8,761 bases of DNA from Fidelibacterota bacterium (GTDB lineage Bacteria; Fidelibacterota; UBA8477), in the NCBI GenBank assembly GCA_021734045.1, contig JAIPJR010000093.1:1-8761 (forward strand), read 5' to 3'. Position numbers and translations under genes: made by a program. The notes under the pieces were generated by a model. It was not told the origin of the DNA and ran no database searches. It worked only from the letters and a program-made list of their open reading frames with translations. This document shows, piece by piece, positions 259 through 7,816 of this stretch. Numbering within the stretch: position 1 is the stretch's first letter; each line of letters starts with the position of its first letter.

Positions 259-1521
259 CTACTGCAAGTATTCCAGAATTTGATTTTCCCGGACAAAATT
301 CACGCTGATTTTATCCAGATAGGCGCGTTCATTTCGTCCGATGATCGTTTCATATCGTACGGTGTTTTCCTTTGGTATGGTGTAAAACCGAACCGTATTC
401 ACACCCGGCAGGGCTACCAGCATTTGCGTGAATATCCCCATATTCCGGCGGTCGCGTGAGCTTGAAATAGCAATATCCGCCGGTGTGTGAAAAAAGACCC
501 GCCGGTGGGGATAATTCTCTTTACCAATCGTCACCAACGGCACTGCTCGCCAGTCACCCCGCATGAGTTCACGAACAAAGGGAATATCATAATCCAAATC
601 GATGAACGTTGCGCTCTGATACTCTTCAGTAATGGCCGTCTTGCCCTTGTTTTTGCGTCCAAAAGCAGTCAGAATGTTAGCAATACGCGGATTCACAACA
701 TAGGTGACCTGAAAGGAAAGCACCAGGCTGTCCGGAGCATAGGGATTCGGTCGGGTATGAATATCATGAATCTGCGCCAGATAGGGATCGAATAACACAT
801 TACGCCAAAGCTCCCTGAGCATCCGGCTGCGCTGCTCCCGGTTGCGCTGATCGGCGTATAATCCACCTTCCAGTGAATCCGCATCATAGGGTGTGGGTGT
901 TACCTGATAGATTTCAGCAGTCGTACCGGTCGTCTTGCTACCAAAATATTCAACACTGGCAGCATCCAGGGGCCGGCCAAAGCTTCGTCCGGCCAGGGAA
1001 ATACCCATTGCCTCTCGTGCCCAGTCGCCCAGCTTCCCTTTCCAATTGAGCAAATGCGTGTATTTATCACTGAAGTCAAATTCATCCAGCTTGTACCCCA
1101 GTCGCAGATACCACAAATCCAGGTGGACATTCACCAAATCCTGACGGTAGCCAAACTTTCCCGTTATAAGGTAAATGTCATAGCCGGGTAACGGTTTACT
1201 GTTAAAATTAGCCTGCCAAATCCGATTTCTGAGTTCTGCTGGATTGGTGAGCCAGTCCGCGGCCACTGGTCGCACAGTCAGCACCTTCAAATTGTGGATT
1301 GGTTTCAGATTATCTCTGAGAAATGCCGACAGGCCATCGGCCAGCCACTGGGGTGATTGCACGGGGGTTTCATCCACCATGGGCGCCAACAGCACTACAG
1401 TTTCGGTACGTTTGAAGGGCAAATTGGCGCCAGGATCAGCGAAAGCGGTAATACTCAGTAGAAAACTGAGGATTATTATACACTTTTTCCTTAAGCCACG
1501 GTTGGTCATTTGCATGGGCAT
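259..1521 (-). CDS. Secreted protein of unknown function
   Basis: A 420-residue protein that I do not recognise. It starts with basic residues (R11 K12 K13), a hydrophobic run and a likely signal peptidase I site at AFA-D (after residue 28), so it is probably exported; there is no lipobox. Residues 40-145 have an alternating strand/helix pattern. It begins with TVVLLAPMVDETP, continues with a helix (PQWLADGLSAFLRDNL), and later has YDIYLITGKF followed by a strand rich in V and L. This resembles the small alpha/beta domain at the N-terminus of TolB-like and other envelope proteins, but that is a fold-level guess. The remainder (150-420) is charged and aromatic-rich with no motif I know. The ATG follows the gltX stop after one base, so translation is probably coupled to gltX. 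Two further in-frame ATGs at 1515 and 1509 are alternative starts, and no site has a convincing Shine-Dalgarno. Confidence 0.85.
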   Translation of the reverse strand: MPMQMTNRGLRKKCIIILSFLLSITAFADPGANLPFKRTETVVLLAPMVDETPVQSPQWLADGLSAFLRDNLKPIHNLKVLTVRPVAADWLTNPAELRNRIWQANFNSKPLPGYDIYLITGKFGYRQDLVNVHLDLWYLRLGYKLDEFDFSDKYTHLLNWKGKLGDWAREAMGISLAGRSFGRPLDAASVEYFGSKTTGTTAEIYQVTPTPYDADSLEGGLYADQRNREQRSRMLRELWRNVLFDPYLAQIHDIHTRPNPYAPDSLVLSFQVTYVVNPRIANILTAFGRKNKGKTAITEEYQSATFIDLDYDIPFVRELMRGDWRAVPLVTIGKENYPHRRVFFHTPADIAISSSRDRRNMGIFTQMLVALPGVNTVRFYTIPKENTVRYETIIGRNERAYLDKISVNFVRENQILEYLQ

Positions 1522-3055: not shown

Positions 3056-4531
3056 CTAATTGGATTTAGAGTGATTACGCACCGCTTCCAGCAATTGTTG
3101 TTTCAAATGAAATAACTGCTCAGAGAGATCCACATGGTAAATATGGGGATTGGTGAGCCGACGAACCTCTTTGCTGAAACTTCTTTTCTCAGTGGCGGCG
3201 TAGTGCCGGATTTCGTCAATTTCAGGCAGATCATACACAAGTTCGCCATCCTTGAAAATTGGCTTCAACAACGGTTCCACTTCAAAATCTTCAATCCGTT
3301 TTTTCTTCCAGGGATGCACCGGGTCGAAAGCAAGAAATGCATCAGTCGGAACAGGCTCTTCCTCCAGCATAATTAAATCCAGAATCGCTTCCCGTGTATC
3401 TTTGTTGCGGAACCGAACCAATTTTTTCAAACCCGGATTGTTGATTTTATCCGGGTTATCACTGCGCTTGATTTCCGGTGCTAAAACGCCATCCCGTTCC
3501 CGGGCAGCCAGTTTGTACACCCCCGCCAGCGCAGGGCAGGAACTGGAAGTAATAAGATTGGTACCCACACCCCAGATATCAATCCGGGCGCCCTGGGCTT
3601 TCAAATCCTGGATCAGGTATTCATCCAAATCGCTACTGGCTGCAATTTTTGCCTCAGGGAAGCCGGCTTCGTCTAGCATTTTCCGGGCAGATTTAGACAG
3701 ATAAGCTAAATCACCACTATCCAGCCGTATCCCGAAATTTTGAAAAGTGTCACCATGCGTTTTACGCATCTCGCGAAAAACGCGAATAGCGTTGGGAATC
3801 CCCTGGCTGAGGGTGTCATAAGTATCCACCAGCAGAATTGTGCGTTGAGGGAATGTGGCCGCGAATGCCCGGAAGGCGGATAATTCATCATCAAAAGACT
3901 GGACAAAGGAATGAGCGTGGGTTCCCCGGACCGGAATGTGAAAGCATTTACCGGCCATGAGATTGGAGGTGGCAGCGGCACCACCAATAAAGGCTGCCCG
4001 GGCGCCGTAAACGCCGGCATCTGGGCCCTGAGCACGTCGCAGACCAAATTCCAAAACAGGATCCTCACCAGCTGCTTCCACAATTCTTGCGGTTTTCGTC
4101 GCGATAAGCGATTGATGATTCAGGAGCGTTAGAATGGTCGTTTCCAACAGTTGAGCCTGGATGAGATGTGCTTTTACCCGCAGAATGGGTTCATGAGGAA
4201 AAACCCAGGTGCCCTCCGGAACCGCGTCGATATCACCTGAAAATGATAAATTTCTCAGATACTCGATGAAATTTGCTGAATACCCCTGGGTGTCCTTCAG
4301 GTAATCCAAATCCTCATCATCAAAATGAAAATGTCGGATGTAATCCACCACCTGTTCCAGTCCGGCAGCCACCGTGTAACCATTTCCGCACGGATTTTTC
4401 CGAAAAAAAACATCAAAAACCACCTGCTTCTCCGCCGTTCCGGATTGGTAATAGGCATAGGCCATATTTACCTGGTACAGGTCGGTAAGCAGTGTCAGAT
4501 TGCGTGATTTATTCATACCGGGATCGGTCAT
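3056..4531 (-). CDS. pncB: Nicotinate phosphoribosyltransferase (YueK type)
   Basis: Converts nicotinate and PRPP to nicotinate mononucleotide and pyrophosphate, with ATP hydrolysis, in the Preiss-Handler NAD salvage route. The 491-residue length and overall sequence fit the B. subtilis YueK type. Visible landmarks are TDLYQVNM (16-23), FFRKNPCGNGY (42-52), the RR(A) segment after EFG (161-167), GTHAHSFVQ (203-211), LVDTYDT (234-240), RLDSGDLAYLSK (269-280) and the phosphate-binding area around ASSDLDE and WGVGTNLITSS (298-330). By comparison with characterised enzymes, H207 is the likely phosphorylated histidine. The start at 4531 is preferred because its ATG overlaps the nicotinamidase stop as ATGA and the family homology begins about 12 residues later. 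An ATG at 4516, preceded by CCCGG, is the alternative. A longer open frame up to 4681 would add 50 unrelated residues inside the nicotinamidase gene. Confidence 0.97.
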   Translation of the reverse strand: MTDPGMNKSRNLTLLTDLYQVNMAYAYYQSGTAEKQVVFDVFFRKNPCGNGYTVAAGLEQVVDYIRHFHFDDEDLDYLKDTQGYSANFIEYLRNLSFSGDIDAVPEGTWVFPHEPILRVKAHLIQAQLLETTILTLLNHQSLIATKTARIVEAAGEDPVLEFGLRRAQGPDAGVYGARAAFIGGAAATSNLMAGKCFHIPVRGTHAHSFVQSFDDELSAFRAFAATFPQRTILLVDTYDTLSQGIPNAIRVFREMRKTHGDTFQNFGIRLDSGDLAYLSKSARKMLDEAGFPEAKIAASSDLDEYLIQDLKAQGARIDIWGVGTNLITSSSCPALAGVYKLAARERDGVLAPEIKRSDNPDKINNPGLKKLVRFRNKDTREAILDLIMLEEEPVPTDAFLAFDPVHPWKKKRIEDFEVEPLLKPIFKDGELVYDLPEIDEIRHYAATEKRSFSKEVRRLTNPHIYHVDLSEQLFHLKQQLLEAVRNHSKSN

Positions 4532-5088
4532 ACAATTTCGGTGTGGAAACACAATTCCATCTGCTTCAGGGCAGACTGGTGATTTTCCGTGAATGTGGCG
4601 CAGCCTTGTGCGAGCACCTGGGTTTTCAATCCGCGGTAATAGGCACCGGCGGTAGTGAGGTAAACACAGATATCCGTGCACACGCCGGTAACCTTCACCC
4701 GTTTCACATCGAATTCGGCCAAAATCTGCTCCAGATCAGTGTTGTAAAACGCATCGTATTGCGGCTTGGGAACATAAATGACCCGGTCATGGTGCTTATG
4801 CTTCTCATACCATTCCCCCAATGTGCCATAGAGTTTCTGCCCCCACGTACCAATGACATTGTGGGGTGGCCACTCTTCAAAATGGCGGTCGTCAGGCAGA
4901 TGAGCGTCCATAGCAATCACCACGTAGTCCCCATTTTTCAGGGCATTATCAGCCTGATTCACGATAAATGGCACAATTTTCTGCGCCGGTTCTCCAGCTG
5001 TGAGGCTACCATCATCATGCACAAAATCATTACTCATATCCACAATGATGAGTGCTTCAGGTTTGGTATTTTCTGCTGTATTCACCAT
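4528..5088 (-). CDS. pncA: Nicotinamidase (isochorismatase-like hydrolase, YueJ type)
   Basis: Hydrolyses nicotinamide to nicotinate and ammonia, feeding the next gene, pncB. The 186-residue length is normal. The cysteine-hydrolase triad is visible as D17 (IIVDMSNDF), K108 (VPKPQYDAF) and C141 in GVCTDICV. The metal-binding set of nicotinamidases is present: D61 and H63 (MDAHLPDD), H69, and H76 in WPPHNVIGT. These residues, together with the adjacent NAPRTase, favour nicotinamidase over a generic isochorismatase or biuret amidohydrolase. The layout matches the yueJ-yueK pair of B. subtilis. The ATG at 5088 is supported by AGAGGG, seven bases upstream. The last bases overlap the pncB start as ATGA, indicating translational coupling. 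Confidence 0.95.
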   Translation of the reverse strand: MVNTAENTKPEALIIVDMSNDFVHDDGSLTAGEPAQKIVPFIVNQADNALKNGDYVVIAMDAHLPDDRHFEEWPPHNVIGTWGQKLYGTLGEWYEKHKHHDRVIYVPKPQYDAFYNTDLEQILAEFDVKRVKVTGVCTDICVYLTTAGAYYRGLKTQVLAQGCATFTENHQSALKQMELCFHTEIV

Positions 5089-5190: not shown

Positions 5191-5826
5191 TCAAAGCAAC
5201 TTGATGCTCACCTGAAGTTCTCCTTCCAACGCGGCGGTCACCACATCACCGGGTTGCAACGCTCCCACGCCTGCCGGCGTCCCGGTAAAAATCAGGTCCC
5301 CGGCTTGTAATGCCGTATATGTTTCCAGATAATCCACGGTTTGGTCCATAGGCAGAATCATTTTTTCAGTCTCACCGGTCTGGCGTAATTCACCATTTAC
5401 ATGCATGGTGTAGCGCAAAGCATTCAAATCGCCCAATTCCAGCGCAGGAATGAAATCTGAAATTATCGCGGCATGATCAAAACTTTTAGCAAGTGTCCAA
5501 GGCTTGCCGCCGGATTTGAGCGCTGACTGCAATTCCCGTAATGTGAGATCAAGTCCCAGTCCAACACCTGCAATCGTTGCCTTACCAGCCTTGCGCGTCA
5601 TCAACAACACCAATTCCGTCTCGTAATGGATGGCGCCCAGGGACCAATTTAGCAGCACCTCACCGGTAAACGGCGTCAGAGCGTTCAGCCCTTTTTGAAA
5701 GACCAATGGCTTGCTTTCTATCGCATTTCCCAATTCCCGGGCGTGTTCCGCGTAATTACGTCCCAGGCACCAAATGGTCCGTGGGAGGATTGTCGTTTCC
5801 GGGTGGGTATTTAACCGTAATTCCAC
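5191..5826 (-). CDS. Fumarylacetoacetate hydrolase family protein (FAHD1-like acylpyruvase/oxaloacetate decarboxylase)
   Basis: A 211-residue single-domain FAH-fold enzyme, the usual length of the FAHD1/YcgM group. It should act on a 2-oxo acid such as an acylpyruvate or oxaloacetate, using a bound Mg or Mn ion in the cytoplasm. The metal ligands are E69 and E71 (HYETELVLLM) and D93 (GLGLDLTLRE). The lid catalytic pair is H28 and E31 (GRNYAEHARELG), and K114 (TLAKSFD) matches the conserved active-site lysine. The C-terminal GDLIFTGTPAGVG (177-189) is the family signature. The exact substrate cannot be read from sequence. It starts with GTG at 5826, supported by CCAGGAG six bases upstream. It lies 16 bp after the PurL-like gene, so the two are almost certainly cotranscribed. 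Confidence 0.93.
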   Translation of the reverse strand: MELRLNTHPETTILPRTIWCLGRNYAEHARELGNAIESKPLVFQKGLNALTPFTGEVLLNWSLGAIHYETELVLLMTRKAGKATIAGVGLGLDLTLRELQSALKSGGKPWTLAKSFDHAAIISDFIPALELGDLNALRYTMHVNGELRQTGETEKMILPMDQTVDYLETYTALQAGDLIFTGTPAGVGALQPGDVVTAALEGELQVSIKLL

Positions 5827-5842
5827 AATTTACTCCTGGGGA

Positions 5843-7816
5843 TTACCCCTGCTGTGGCCACTGTAAAGCCTGCTGTAATTCGCTCATGCTCAGATTAATA
5901 TCGTCATTCACAATAAATCGCTCCCCTCTGACCCGGCCGACGGTCGCACTGGGAACCTGATTGACCTGGGTGATTTTTTCCAGGTCCAAAAGATGCTTTT
6001 CAGCTAATGCCACGATGATGACGGACTGACTTTCACCGAACAGCAGTTGATCATTTCGAAATTTGCGGTGAATATGCAGCTCACAGCCTTTGGGTTGATT
6101 CGGGTCGGCAAGGCACGCTTTAACCATGGTTGTTACCAGACCGCCGGTATCCAGCGTGGTGATAGATTTAATAATGCCATCCTCCAGCGCTTCGCGGGCG
6201 GCGCGTTGGACCCGGTCTTCAAATATCATGTCCAATTCAGGTGGCTCCGTGCCCACCATGTTCACCATCTCCTCCAGATAGACACCACCGCTTAACTCAC
6301 CTTTCAGAGTCCCCAGCATGACAAGAAAATCGCCCTCATCGCGCAGGCGTTGGGTCATGGGACGCTGTCCATCATCGGTACGTCCCACGGCACCAATGAC
6401 CACATTCAATTCATCAGCAATTACGACTTGTCGGGAAATCACCGGCAGATTCAAAACGCGGGCGGCGGCAGCAACGCCCCGGACGGTTTCCTGAAATTGG
6501 AAAAAATTCTCTTCATCATTCAAATCCGGCGTCATGATCGCGCAGGTTAATGCCCGTGCTTCCACACCGGTGCAGGTGAGGCGACGCGTGGCAGTGGCAA
6601 CTGACATGGCCGCTGCCCGGCGGGGGTTCATTCGCATGATAATGGGAAAAGAAGCCAGGGATGCTGCAAATCGCTCACCCGATTGGGATTTGGTGCGGGT
6701 CACCAGCGGTAAGTCCAGGAAGGGTAGTTGGTAATTATCTGCGAAGGGAACCGGGCGCACTCTGGGTGAGCGGAGAACCGTGAGAAGGGCTTGGCCATAG
6801 TCACGGGGCTCGATGAGTGTTTGGTAATCCAGGGCAGCAGATTTCTCAAATTTCCGCTCCGGCTTATCCACCGCTTCGGTAATGGTCATCCCCCCACCAG
6901 GTAGAAGTATTTTCACGGGGATATTGGCCAGCATACGCCTTCCGTCCTGTAGCGTGATATTGGCGTCATTCGTGGCTTGAACAAGTCGCAAGCCAGTCAG
7001 ATCATGATGGTTTAGTAATTTCTGAGCTTCCGGCTCCAAATCCCCCGCCAGAGTTAGTAGCAAACCTCCTACGGATTGATTCAGGAGAACAGAATCCCAG
7101 GGTTCGGCGCGTACCATTAACGGCCAGGCGTCTGTCTGAATATTTAATCCTAATCCGGAATCTTCCACTAGCTTGACGAATGCCACTAGCAGCATTTCAC
7201 CATCCACAAGCCGGGTTCCCCGGGCGATATCCAGGAGTGATTCATCGGCTAAAAGACGCCGGTATGCTTTCCGCTGGGGTGCTAAGAGTTTGGTGGGAAC
7301 ATCAGACCAGGTGCGTACCTGTTTTGGCAACACCAACAAGACCACTTCATTTGCTGCCATGAGCCGGTCAAAATAGGTGGCACTCAAATCCGCCTCTCCA
7401 ACGACCTGTAAGATCTGATCATGAAACTGTGTCTCTTTCGGCAGTGACCATTGATGTGAAATTTTCGTGGTGGACTTCAATGGTTTTGGAAGATTGCTGG
7501 TCTGGAGAATTAATTTCTCCGCACGAGCCAGATCCAGTTCAGTCATTTGTGGTTGTGCCGCTGCGTTTCCAGCAAAAAGTTCCGCTACCAACGCATGCGA
7601 CTCTGAAACCTCCACCCGCTTTAAACCGTCCAACACACCCCTTTCAGAACCATCCTGGGGCAGTTGTTTCAACTCGTTCCAAACCGCAGCCCGGCTTATC
7701 CCGGGCGACCACATCCATTCAATAATGCGGCGCTCTACTTCTCCGGGCGCATGCCCCAGTAATTCAACGAGCTGGTCATTTTTTGCATTGATGGATGGGT
7801 CAGAATTTTTTTTCAT
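5843..7816 (-). CDS. Divergent PurL-like protein (tandem AIRS-fold halves, predicted catalytically inactive)
   Basis: A 657-residue protein whose landmarks run in the same order as in small-type PurL (FGAM synthase, about 740 residues). Residues 15-56 match the first linker domain, with LVELLGHAPGEVERR and EWMWSPG. The latter replaces the MWSEHCSYK segment, so the catalytic His is gone. Residues 67-88 (VEVSESHALVAELFAGNAAA) recall the metal/ATP segment ESHNHPSAIEPYNGAATG but have lost its core. Residues 236-256 (RAEPWDSVLLNQSVGGLLLTL) align with EPYE-LSESQERMLLV. The second half shows RDYGQALLTVLRSPRV (338-353), MNPRRAAAMSVA (396-407), TGVEARALTCAI (416-427), ETVRGVAAAARVLNLPV (443-459), VVIGAVGRTDD (472-482), GELSGGVYL (506-514), LDTGGL (555-560) and an intact LLFGESQS (591-598). 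The start at 7816 has GTGAG four bases upstream. A TTG at 7873 would overlap the previous gene. Function is unknown: a scaffold, regulator or altered enzyme is possible. Confidence 0.85.
   Translation of the reverse strand: MKKNSDPSINAKNDQLVELLGHAPGEVERRIIEWMWSPGISRAAVWNELKQLPQDGSERGVLDGLKRVEVSESHALVAELFAGNAAAQPQMTELDLARAEKLILQTSNLPKPLKSTTKISHQWSLPKETQFHDQILQVVGEADLSATYFDRLMAANEVVLLVLPKQVRTWSDVPTKLLAPQRKAYRRLLADESLLDIARGTRLVDGEMLLVAFVKLVEDSGLGLNIQTDAWPLMVRAEPWDSVLLNQSVGGLLLTLAGDLEPEAQKLLNHHDLTGLRLVQATNDANITLQDGRRMLANIPVKILLPGGGMTITEAVDKPERKFEKSAALDYQTLIEPRDYGQALLTVLRSPRVRPVPFADNYQLPFLDLPLVTRTKSQSGERFAASLASFPIIMRMNPRRAAAMSVATATRRLTCTGVEARALTCAIMTPDLNDEENFFQFQETVRGVAAAARVLNLPVISRQVVIADELNVVIGAVGRTDDGQRPMTQRLRDEGDFLVMLGTLKGELSGGVYLEEMVNMVGTEPPELDMIFEDRVQRAAREALEDGIIKSITTLDTGGLVTTMVKACLADPNQPKGCELHIHRKFRNDQLLFGESQSVIIVALAEKHLLDLEKITQVNQVPSATVGRVRGERFIVNDDINLSMSELQQALQWPQQG

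Follow-up and report, generated by a model that had tools for sequence, protein, structure and literature searches.

A catalytically degenerate PurL of Marinimicrobia that apparently descends in place from the ancestral purL and is probably retained for its C-terminal domain

Small-type PurL (FGAM synthase subunit II, TIGR01736/PRK01213), represented by the T. maritima (2HS0-2HS4) and T. thermophilus (3VIU) proteins, has the domain order Linker-A1-B1-A2-B2. The gammaherpesvirus FGARATs (ORF75 family) derive from FGARAT, act in roles beyond purine synthesis, and have been discussed as pseudoenzymes, which indicates that repurposing of FGAM synthase is possible (PMC5811070, PMC6213852). Other metabolic enzymes also have a non-catalytic cellular role, including MoeA/Glp in Actinobacteria and the citrate synthase CitA of Caulobacter (PMC11733289, PMC7083601). 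Our search of the open-access literature turned up no account of a PurL pseudoenzyme in bacteria and nothing relevant on purine synthesis in Marinimicrobia.

The gene analyzed here, pPurL, lies on the minus strand at positions 5843 to 7816 of the window, i.e., the whole stretch of 8,761 nucleotides that was analyzed (contig JAIPJR010000093.1, assembly GCA_021734045.1). Its reading frame, profile matches, residue losses, selection, and Foldseek matches point to a catalytically dead descendant of PurL. The long intact frame claimed in the original prediction is there, with 657 aa from an ATG start and no internal stop. The ribosome binding site that had been called good is present but moderate, with GTGAG a few bases 5' of the start codon (...AAAGTGAGTATT-ATG). 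pPurL shares with small-type PurL the Linker-A1-B1-A2-B2 order, the fold, and the ancestral gene position; unlike it, pPurL has no catalytic, Mg, or nucleotide residues, scores far below the family cut-off, and has its constraint concentrated in B2. It probably resembles the gammaherpesvirus FGARATs in the traits listed above, but those proteins are viral and host-acting. Viral FGARATs are of the large type, and the viral profile TIGR01739 matched pPurL with an E value of only 0.003 (15.5 bits versus a cut-off of 716), so no close relationship was detected. MoeA/Glp and CitA are other enzymes, whereas pPurL appears to be the old copy in its place, which became non-catalytic once displaced, probably in several parallel events. 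The pseudoenzyme is thus a known kind, and what appears new is the pPurL family, its origin in place from a displaced gene, and the fact that this seems to have recurred. Pseudoenzymes usually come from a duplicate; in this case the original copy seems to have lost catalysis at its own locus after a foreign takeover, apparently three times, with the same domain kept each time. This extends the original prediction, in that pPurL would be a phylum-wide descendant of the ancestral purL, in place and probably parallel in origin.

The PurL fold proposed in the original prediction was confirmed by both profile search and structure prediction. The NCBIfam profile PRK01213 matched residues 211-651 of pPurL with an E value of 1.3e-44 and 152 bits (cut-off, 648), and TIGR01736 matched with 136 bits (cut-off, 526), placing the protein below both curated cut-offs for a functional PurL. 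The Pfam domains AIRS_C (E 2.9e-8, 34.5 bits; cut-off, 23.1) and AIRS (E 4.1e-7, 30.8 bits; cut-off, 24) both exceeded their gathering cut-offs, which places pPurL in the AIRS superfamily (PF00586/PF02769). A sequence search of the PDB returned T. thermophilus PurL as the sole significant match. An AlphaFold2 model built from an alignment of the window and locus proteins (pLDDT 77.8, pTM 0.78; low pLDDT at residues 84-92 and 107-134) had T. thermophilus PurL 3VIU as its top Foldseek match (E 9e-40, TM 0.76 by query length), followed by the Salmonella, Thermotoga, and human FGAM synthases, and it matches the T. thermophilus enzyme over all four domains of the AIRS-duplicated fold. The model of another family member (L042) reached a pLDDT of 84.7 and a TM of 0.80. 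The two models and their matches therefore indicate that the PurL fold was kept, and the profile and Foldseek matches place homology with PurL beyond chance.

The loss of the catalytic and Mg/ATP motifs, the core of the original prediction, held at every position that could be mapped. In the T. maritima enzyme, we take His32 and His72 to be catalytic and Glu70, Asp94, and Asp236 to be metal ligands; by alignment, these correspond to His55, His102, Glu100, Asp124, and Asp275 of a canonical relative (L009). The window protein has none of the five. Among 39 pPurL sequences, the equivalents of His32, Glu70, His72, and Asp236 were found in 0 of 39, and that of Asp94 was present in 15%. The SESQER and GNVSxYN segments, together with Asp468, Asp641, and Glu653 (L009 numbering), were likewise gone from most or nearly all of the 39. 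The losses extend through the protein: the N-terminal linker and degenerate A1 domain (residues ~1-163; positions 7328-7816, minus strand) is missing the equivalents of His32, Glu70, His72, and Asp94; B1 (residues ~164-311; 6884-7327, minus strand) is without the Asp236 equivalent and the SESQERM segment; and A2 (residues ~372-480; 6377-6703, minus strand) has lost the DGNGRY, NCLNFGNP, and GGNVSFYN segments. The replacement segments MWSPGISRA, ESHALVAE, MRMNPRRAAA, CAIMTPDL, SRQVVIADE, and TLDTGGL were all located. Equating ESHALVAE with ESHNHPSA is alignment-dependent, since A1 has diverged too far to align well, and a relative in the genus (G243) has SETQELCV at that position. Judging from these residues, no known PurL chemistry would allow pPurL to synthesize FGAM. 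An enzyme fold without its catalytic motifs is maintained under selection, which supports classifying pPurL as a pseudoenzyme.

The selection itself was evident in orthologues, as had been predicted. Between the window and its relative G244 (83% identical), dN/dS was 0.055 for the whole gene and 0.020 for B2, compared with 0.054 for the active class-B PurL (described below) of the same two genomes; these estimates are rough, with synonymous sites near saturation (dS near 2). Within the genus, B1 was the fastest-evolving domain. We considered that pPurL could be a displaced, functionless gene in slow decay awaiting elimination, which would fit its loss in some lineages and the fast divergence of its catalytic domains. 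This has next to no probability against such dN/dS values at dS near 2, against frames that are uninterrupted in nearly all members, and against retention in ~15 families, and the selection data refute it for the window's lineage.

The constraint is concentrated in B2 (AIRS_C; residues ~481-651; positions 5864-6376, minus strand), the retained and most constrained module by Pfam match, conservation, and dN/dS. Mean identity between active class-A enzymes was highest in A1 (0.74) and lowest in B2 (0.54), and mean identity between the window pPurL and the active enzymes was 0.12 in A1, 0.18 in B1, 0.27 in A2, and 0.40 in a nearly gap-free B2; between pPurLs, B2 identity averaged 0.47. The conservation pattern is reversed: B2 is the least conserved domain of active PurLs and by far the most conserved domain of pPurLs. 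Ten of the 13 B2 positions that are invariant among active enzymes were kept in at least 70% of the 39 pPurLs. Several polar B2 residues are common to pPurLs and class A and absent from classes B and C, and E595, E606, R628, and N637 of pPurL are present in nearly all relatives. Such polar residues look like a functional surface and not the fold core alone, although B2 conservation could in part be a folding requirement. Near-invariance of polar B2 residues (E682, E693, R715, and N725 in L009 numbering) would also be expected of a changed enzyme, in which a rebuilt active site performs another reaction, e.g., with the adjacent FAH-family hydrolase, whose gene often overlaps pPurL by 1 base. 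We regard a changed enzyme as very improbable, since neither half retains the known nucleotide and Mg ligands of the AIRS superfamily, and D641 and E653 of B2 itself are among those lost.

A canonical purL elsewhere in the genome had been suggested as a search target, and an intact one was found. Contig C105 of the same assembly (locus L056) encodes a PurL of ~780 aa with all motifs and 650 bits, over the cut-off, in a purA-purL-purM-purQ-purC-purE-purB-purF-purD-purN operon. We refer to this type as class B and to the PurLs of ~750 aa and ~900 bits as class A. With a separate intact class-B PurL in the genome, FGAM synthesis is independent of pPurL, which is therefore neither the only nor the principal FGAM synthase. 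Class-B PurLs from the window's genus fall inside those of other Marinimicrobia on the full-length tree, and a later horizontal acquisition would fit this placement.

A profile search of 245 genomes detected pPurL in at least 67 genomes of ~15 family codes. By inspection of these results, class-A PurL occurred together with pPurL in none of the at least 67 genomes. The pPurL genomes carry either a class-B PurL (f1, f7-f21) or a 1006-aa PurS-fused PurL (f5), although in incomplete assemblies the second PurL was sometimes missing from the matches. Class B without pPurL occurs in all of f14 (genomes of 0.7-1.0 Mb) and parts of f17-f19, so pPurL is not universally needed. Family f2, which shares its order with the window, lacks pPurL and encodes its PurL in an operon (purS-Q-L-F-M-N-H). 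A contig scan with the family alignment gave 50 loci, and all phylum-labelled degenerate ones belonged to Candidatus Neomarinimicrobiota (Marinimicrobia; "Fidelibacterota" in NCBI); at the sensitivity of that scan, no degenerate PurL was seen outside this phylum, the one outsider locus being a full-length PurL of Caldilineaceae over the family cut-off. Several f14 genomes (G036-G059, 0.7-1.0 Mb) had no purL in the profile search, e.g., G046 at 97% completeness, and others had class B alone; it is possible that streamlined f14 lineages are purine auxotrophs.

The original prediction had also offered a non-catalytic partner or allosteric subunit of active PurL, and of this the non-catalytic part stands while the partner part is not favored. 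A regulatory or structural partner that interacts with class-B PurL (or PurQ) and stands in for the absent PurS would accord with the frequent regulation of active relatives by pseudoenzymes (PMC11266112, PMC10211241) and with PurS itself, which was not found in the window's genus and is missing from pPurL genomes apart from the fused f5 form. Class-A and class-C genomes have PurS, and class-B genomes lack it almost without exception. However, many class-B genomes without PurS also lack pPurL, both in f14 and in G075, G115, G138, and G140 (92-96% complete), f5 keeps pPurL beside its unrelated 1006-aa PurL, and pPurL lies outside the purine operon, so that we consider a PurS-replacing partner unlikely. 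As separate observations (L056, 6615-11353; L185, 1359-4376, G003), the PurQ of class-B genomes without recognizable PurS lies in a 428-aa frame with ~200 extra C-terminal residues, and the 1006-aa PurL of f5 bears a PurS-like N-terminal stretch; the class-B and f5 PurLs are possibly PurS-free FGAM synthases.

Gene neighborhood connects pPurL to the class-A genes. In the window, pPurL is followed after 16 bases by the next operon gene, a FAH-family hydrolase (YcgM/HpaG-like by Pfam and profile match; 5191-5826, minus strand) that is a conserved neighbor of purL or pPurL in many families, and the next gene upstream encodes an NHL-repeat protein truncated by the contig end (7860-8759, minus strand). 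In G244, uvrC precedes the NHL-repeat gene, and the order in the window's genus thus reads uvrC-NHL-pPurL-FAH. The same uvrC-(NHL)-X-FAH locus holds canonical PurL in f6, f4, f27, and f31 and pPurL in f1 and f5: the class-A slot is uvrC-purL in f31, NHL-purL-FAH hydrolase in f6, purL-FAH hydrolase in f4, and glyoxalase-uvrC-NHL-purL with convergent IMPase and symporter genes downstream in f27, and the pPurL slot is uvrC-pPurL-FAH in f5 and DUF1611-MLE-glyoxalase-uvrC-pPurL in f15, where the IMPase and symporter genes are also found. The glyoxalase-uvrC-X arrangement with convergent IMPase-symporter genes therefore flanks canonical PurL and pPurL alike. These shared neighbors argue that pPurL descends, in place, from the ancestral purL. 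In f7, f11-f13, f17, f18, and f21, the order is recR-pgsA-pgpA-cinA-ligT-recA-recX-pPurL-(FAH), and many pPurLs overlap uvrC, recX, or the FAH gene by 1 base, i.e., are translationally coupled. Many Marinimicrobia families strongly conserve the recR-to-FAH order (L042, L045, L046, L049, L053, and similar loci), and in others uvrC is the gene upstream of pPurL.

Adjacency to recA and uvrC was rejected as direct evidence for DNA repair, since canonical purL already lies beside uvrC and the position may be inherited. UvrC, RecA-RecX, and the FAH-family hydrolase are leads only as partners, because active purL already adjoined uvrC and the FAH gene. A bolder proposal, that the PurL of the phylum was ancestrally bifunctional, with B2 as a binding module linking the supply of purines to recombination or DNA repair (UvrC, RecA-RecX), and that three displacements of catalysis left this module as a dedicated pseudoenzyme, is in our estimation quite improbable.

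The pPurL lineages occupied separate positions on three trees. In a tree of B2 alone, pPurLs nested in class-A PurLs at three places: the window's genus lay near f6, f5 grouped with f4, and the f7-f21 clade stood beside f22/f25/f26. A single pPurL group appeared in 0% of 200 bootstraps. In the RpoB tree, f5 grouped with active f4 (100/100), as did the large f7-f21 clade with active f22/f25/f26 (100/99). RpoB was not found in G000, G244, or G228, so UvrC served to position the window's family; its tree joined the family to f2 (100/100), apart from both other pPurL lineages. The RpoB and UvrC trees each need three state changes, two of them forced by strongly supported (starred) branches, and united the pPurL lineages in 0% of bootstraps. 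The alternative is a single ancient paralogue, duplicated in the phylum ancestor, after which each lineage lost either the active or the dead copy. The full-length tree does unite all pPurLs, and with the B2 tree (175 columns) an AU test did not reject a single pPurL clade (p 0.118). Nevertheless, the active and dead kinds were never found together and occupy one slot, and nested positions are common to the B2, RpoB, and UvrC trees, making a single paralogue unlikely. The full-length grouping carries long-branch and composition warnings and was set aside, and we relied on the B2 tree and the species markers. Three independent origins of pPurL are favored on these trees; in view of the AU result, at least two is the safer claim.

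We therefore return to displacement in place. The reading that we find likely is that a displaced purL was kept where it stood, as a pseudoenzyme, for a B2 function that needs no FGAM-synthase chemistry. In the window's lineage, a horizontally acquired class-B PurL would have taken over FGAM synthesis, and the ancestral PurL, relieved of catalysis, would then have lost its FGAR, ATP, and Mg sites. The old protein and its four-domain fold would have been retained for the second half, above all the C-terminal B2, and other lineages may have followed the same course, probably two more times independently. Since B2 persisted through separate catalytic losses and alongside different replacement enzymes, an ancestral non-catalytic B2 function is the simplest account; on the best reading, this role predates the loss of catalysis and is probably protein-binding. 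pPurL would then act as a folded scaffold, co-translated with its operon neighbors, whose B2 face binds a protein or a metabolite. Retention of pPurL suggests that PurL has a second, non-catalytic job in Marinimicrobia, a little-known marine phylum, and a hidden function of this near-universal purine enzyme becomes directly testable. These genes also call for caution: they should not be annotated as purL, nor should their presence in an uncultured genome be taken to prove that it makes purines.

Two further observations concern the rest of the window. Downstream of the FAH hydrolase, nicotinamidase and nicotinate phosphoribosyltransferase genes (3056-5088, minus strand) form a small NAD-salvage pair that is present in G000 and G244 and missing from the G243 locus. 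A 420-aa protein (259-1521, minus strand) with a signal-peptide-like start and without a Pfam match is conserved in the genus beside gltX, at 84% and 67% identity and under purifying selection.
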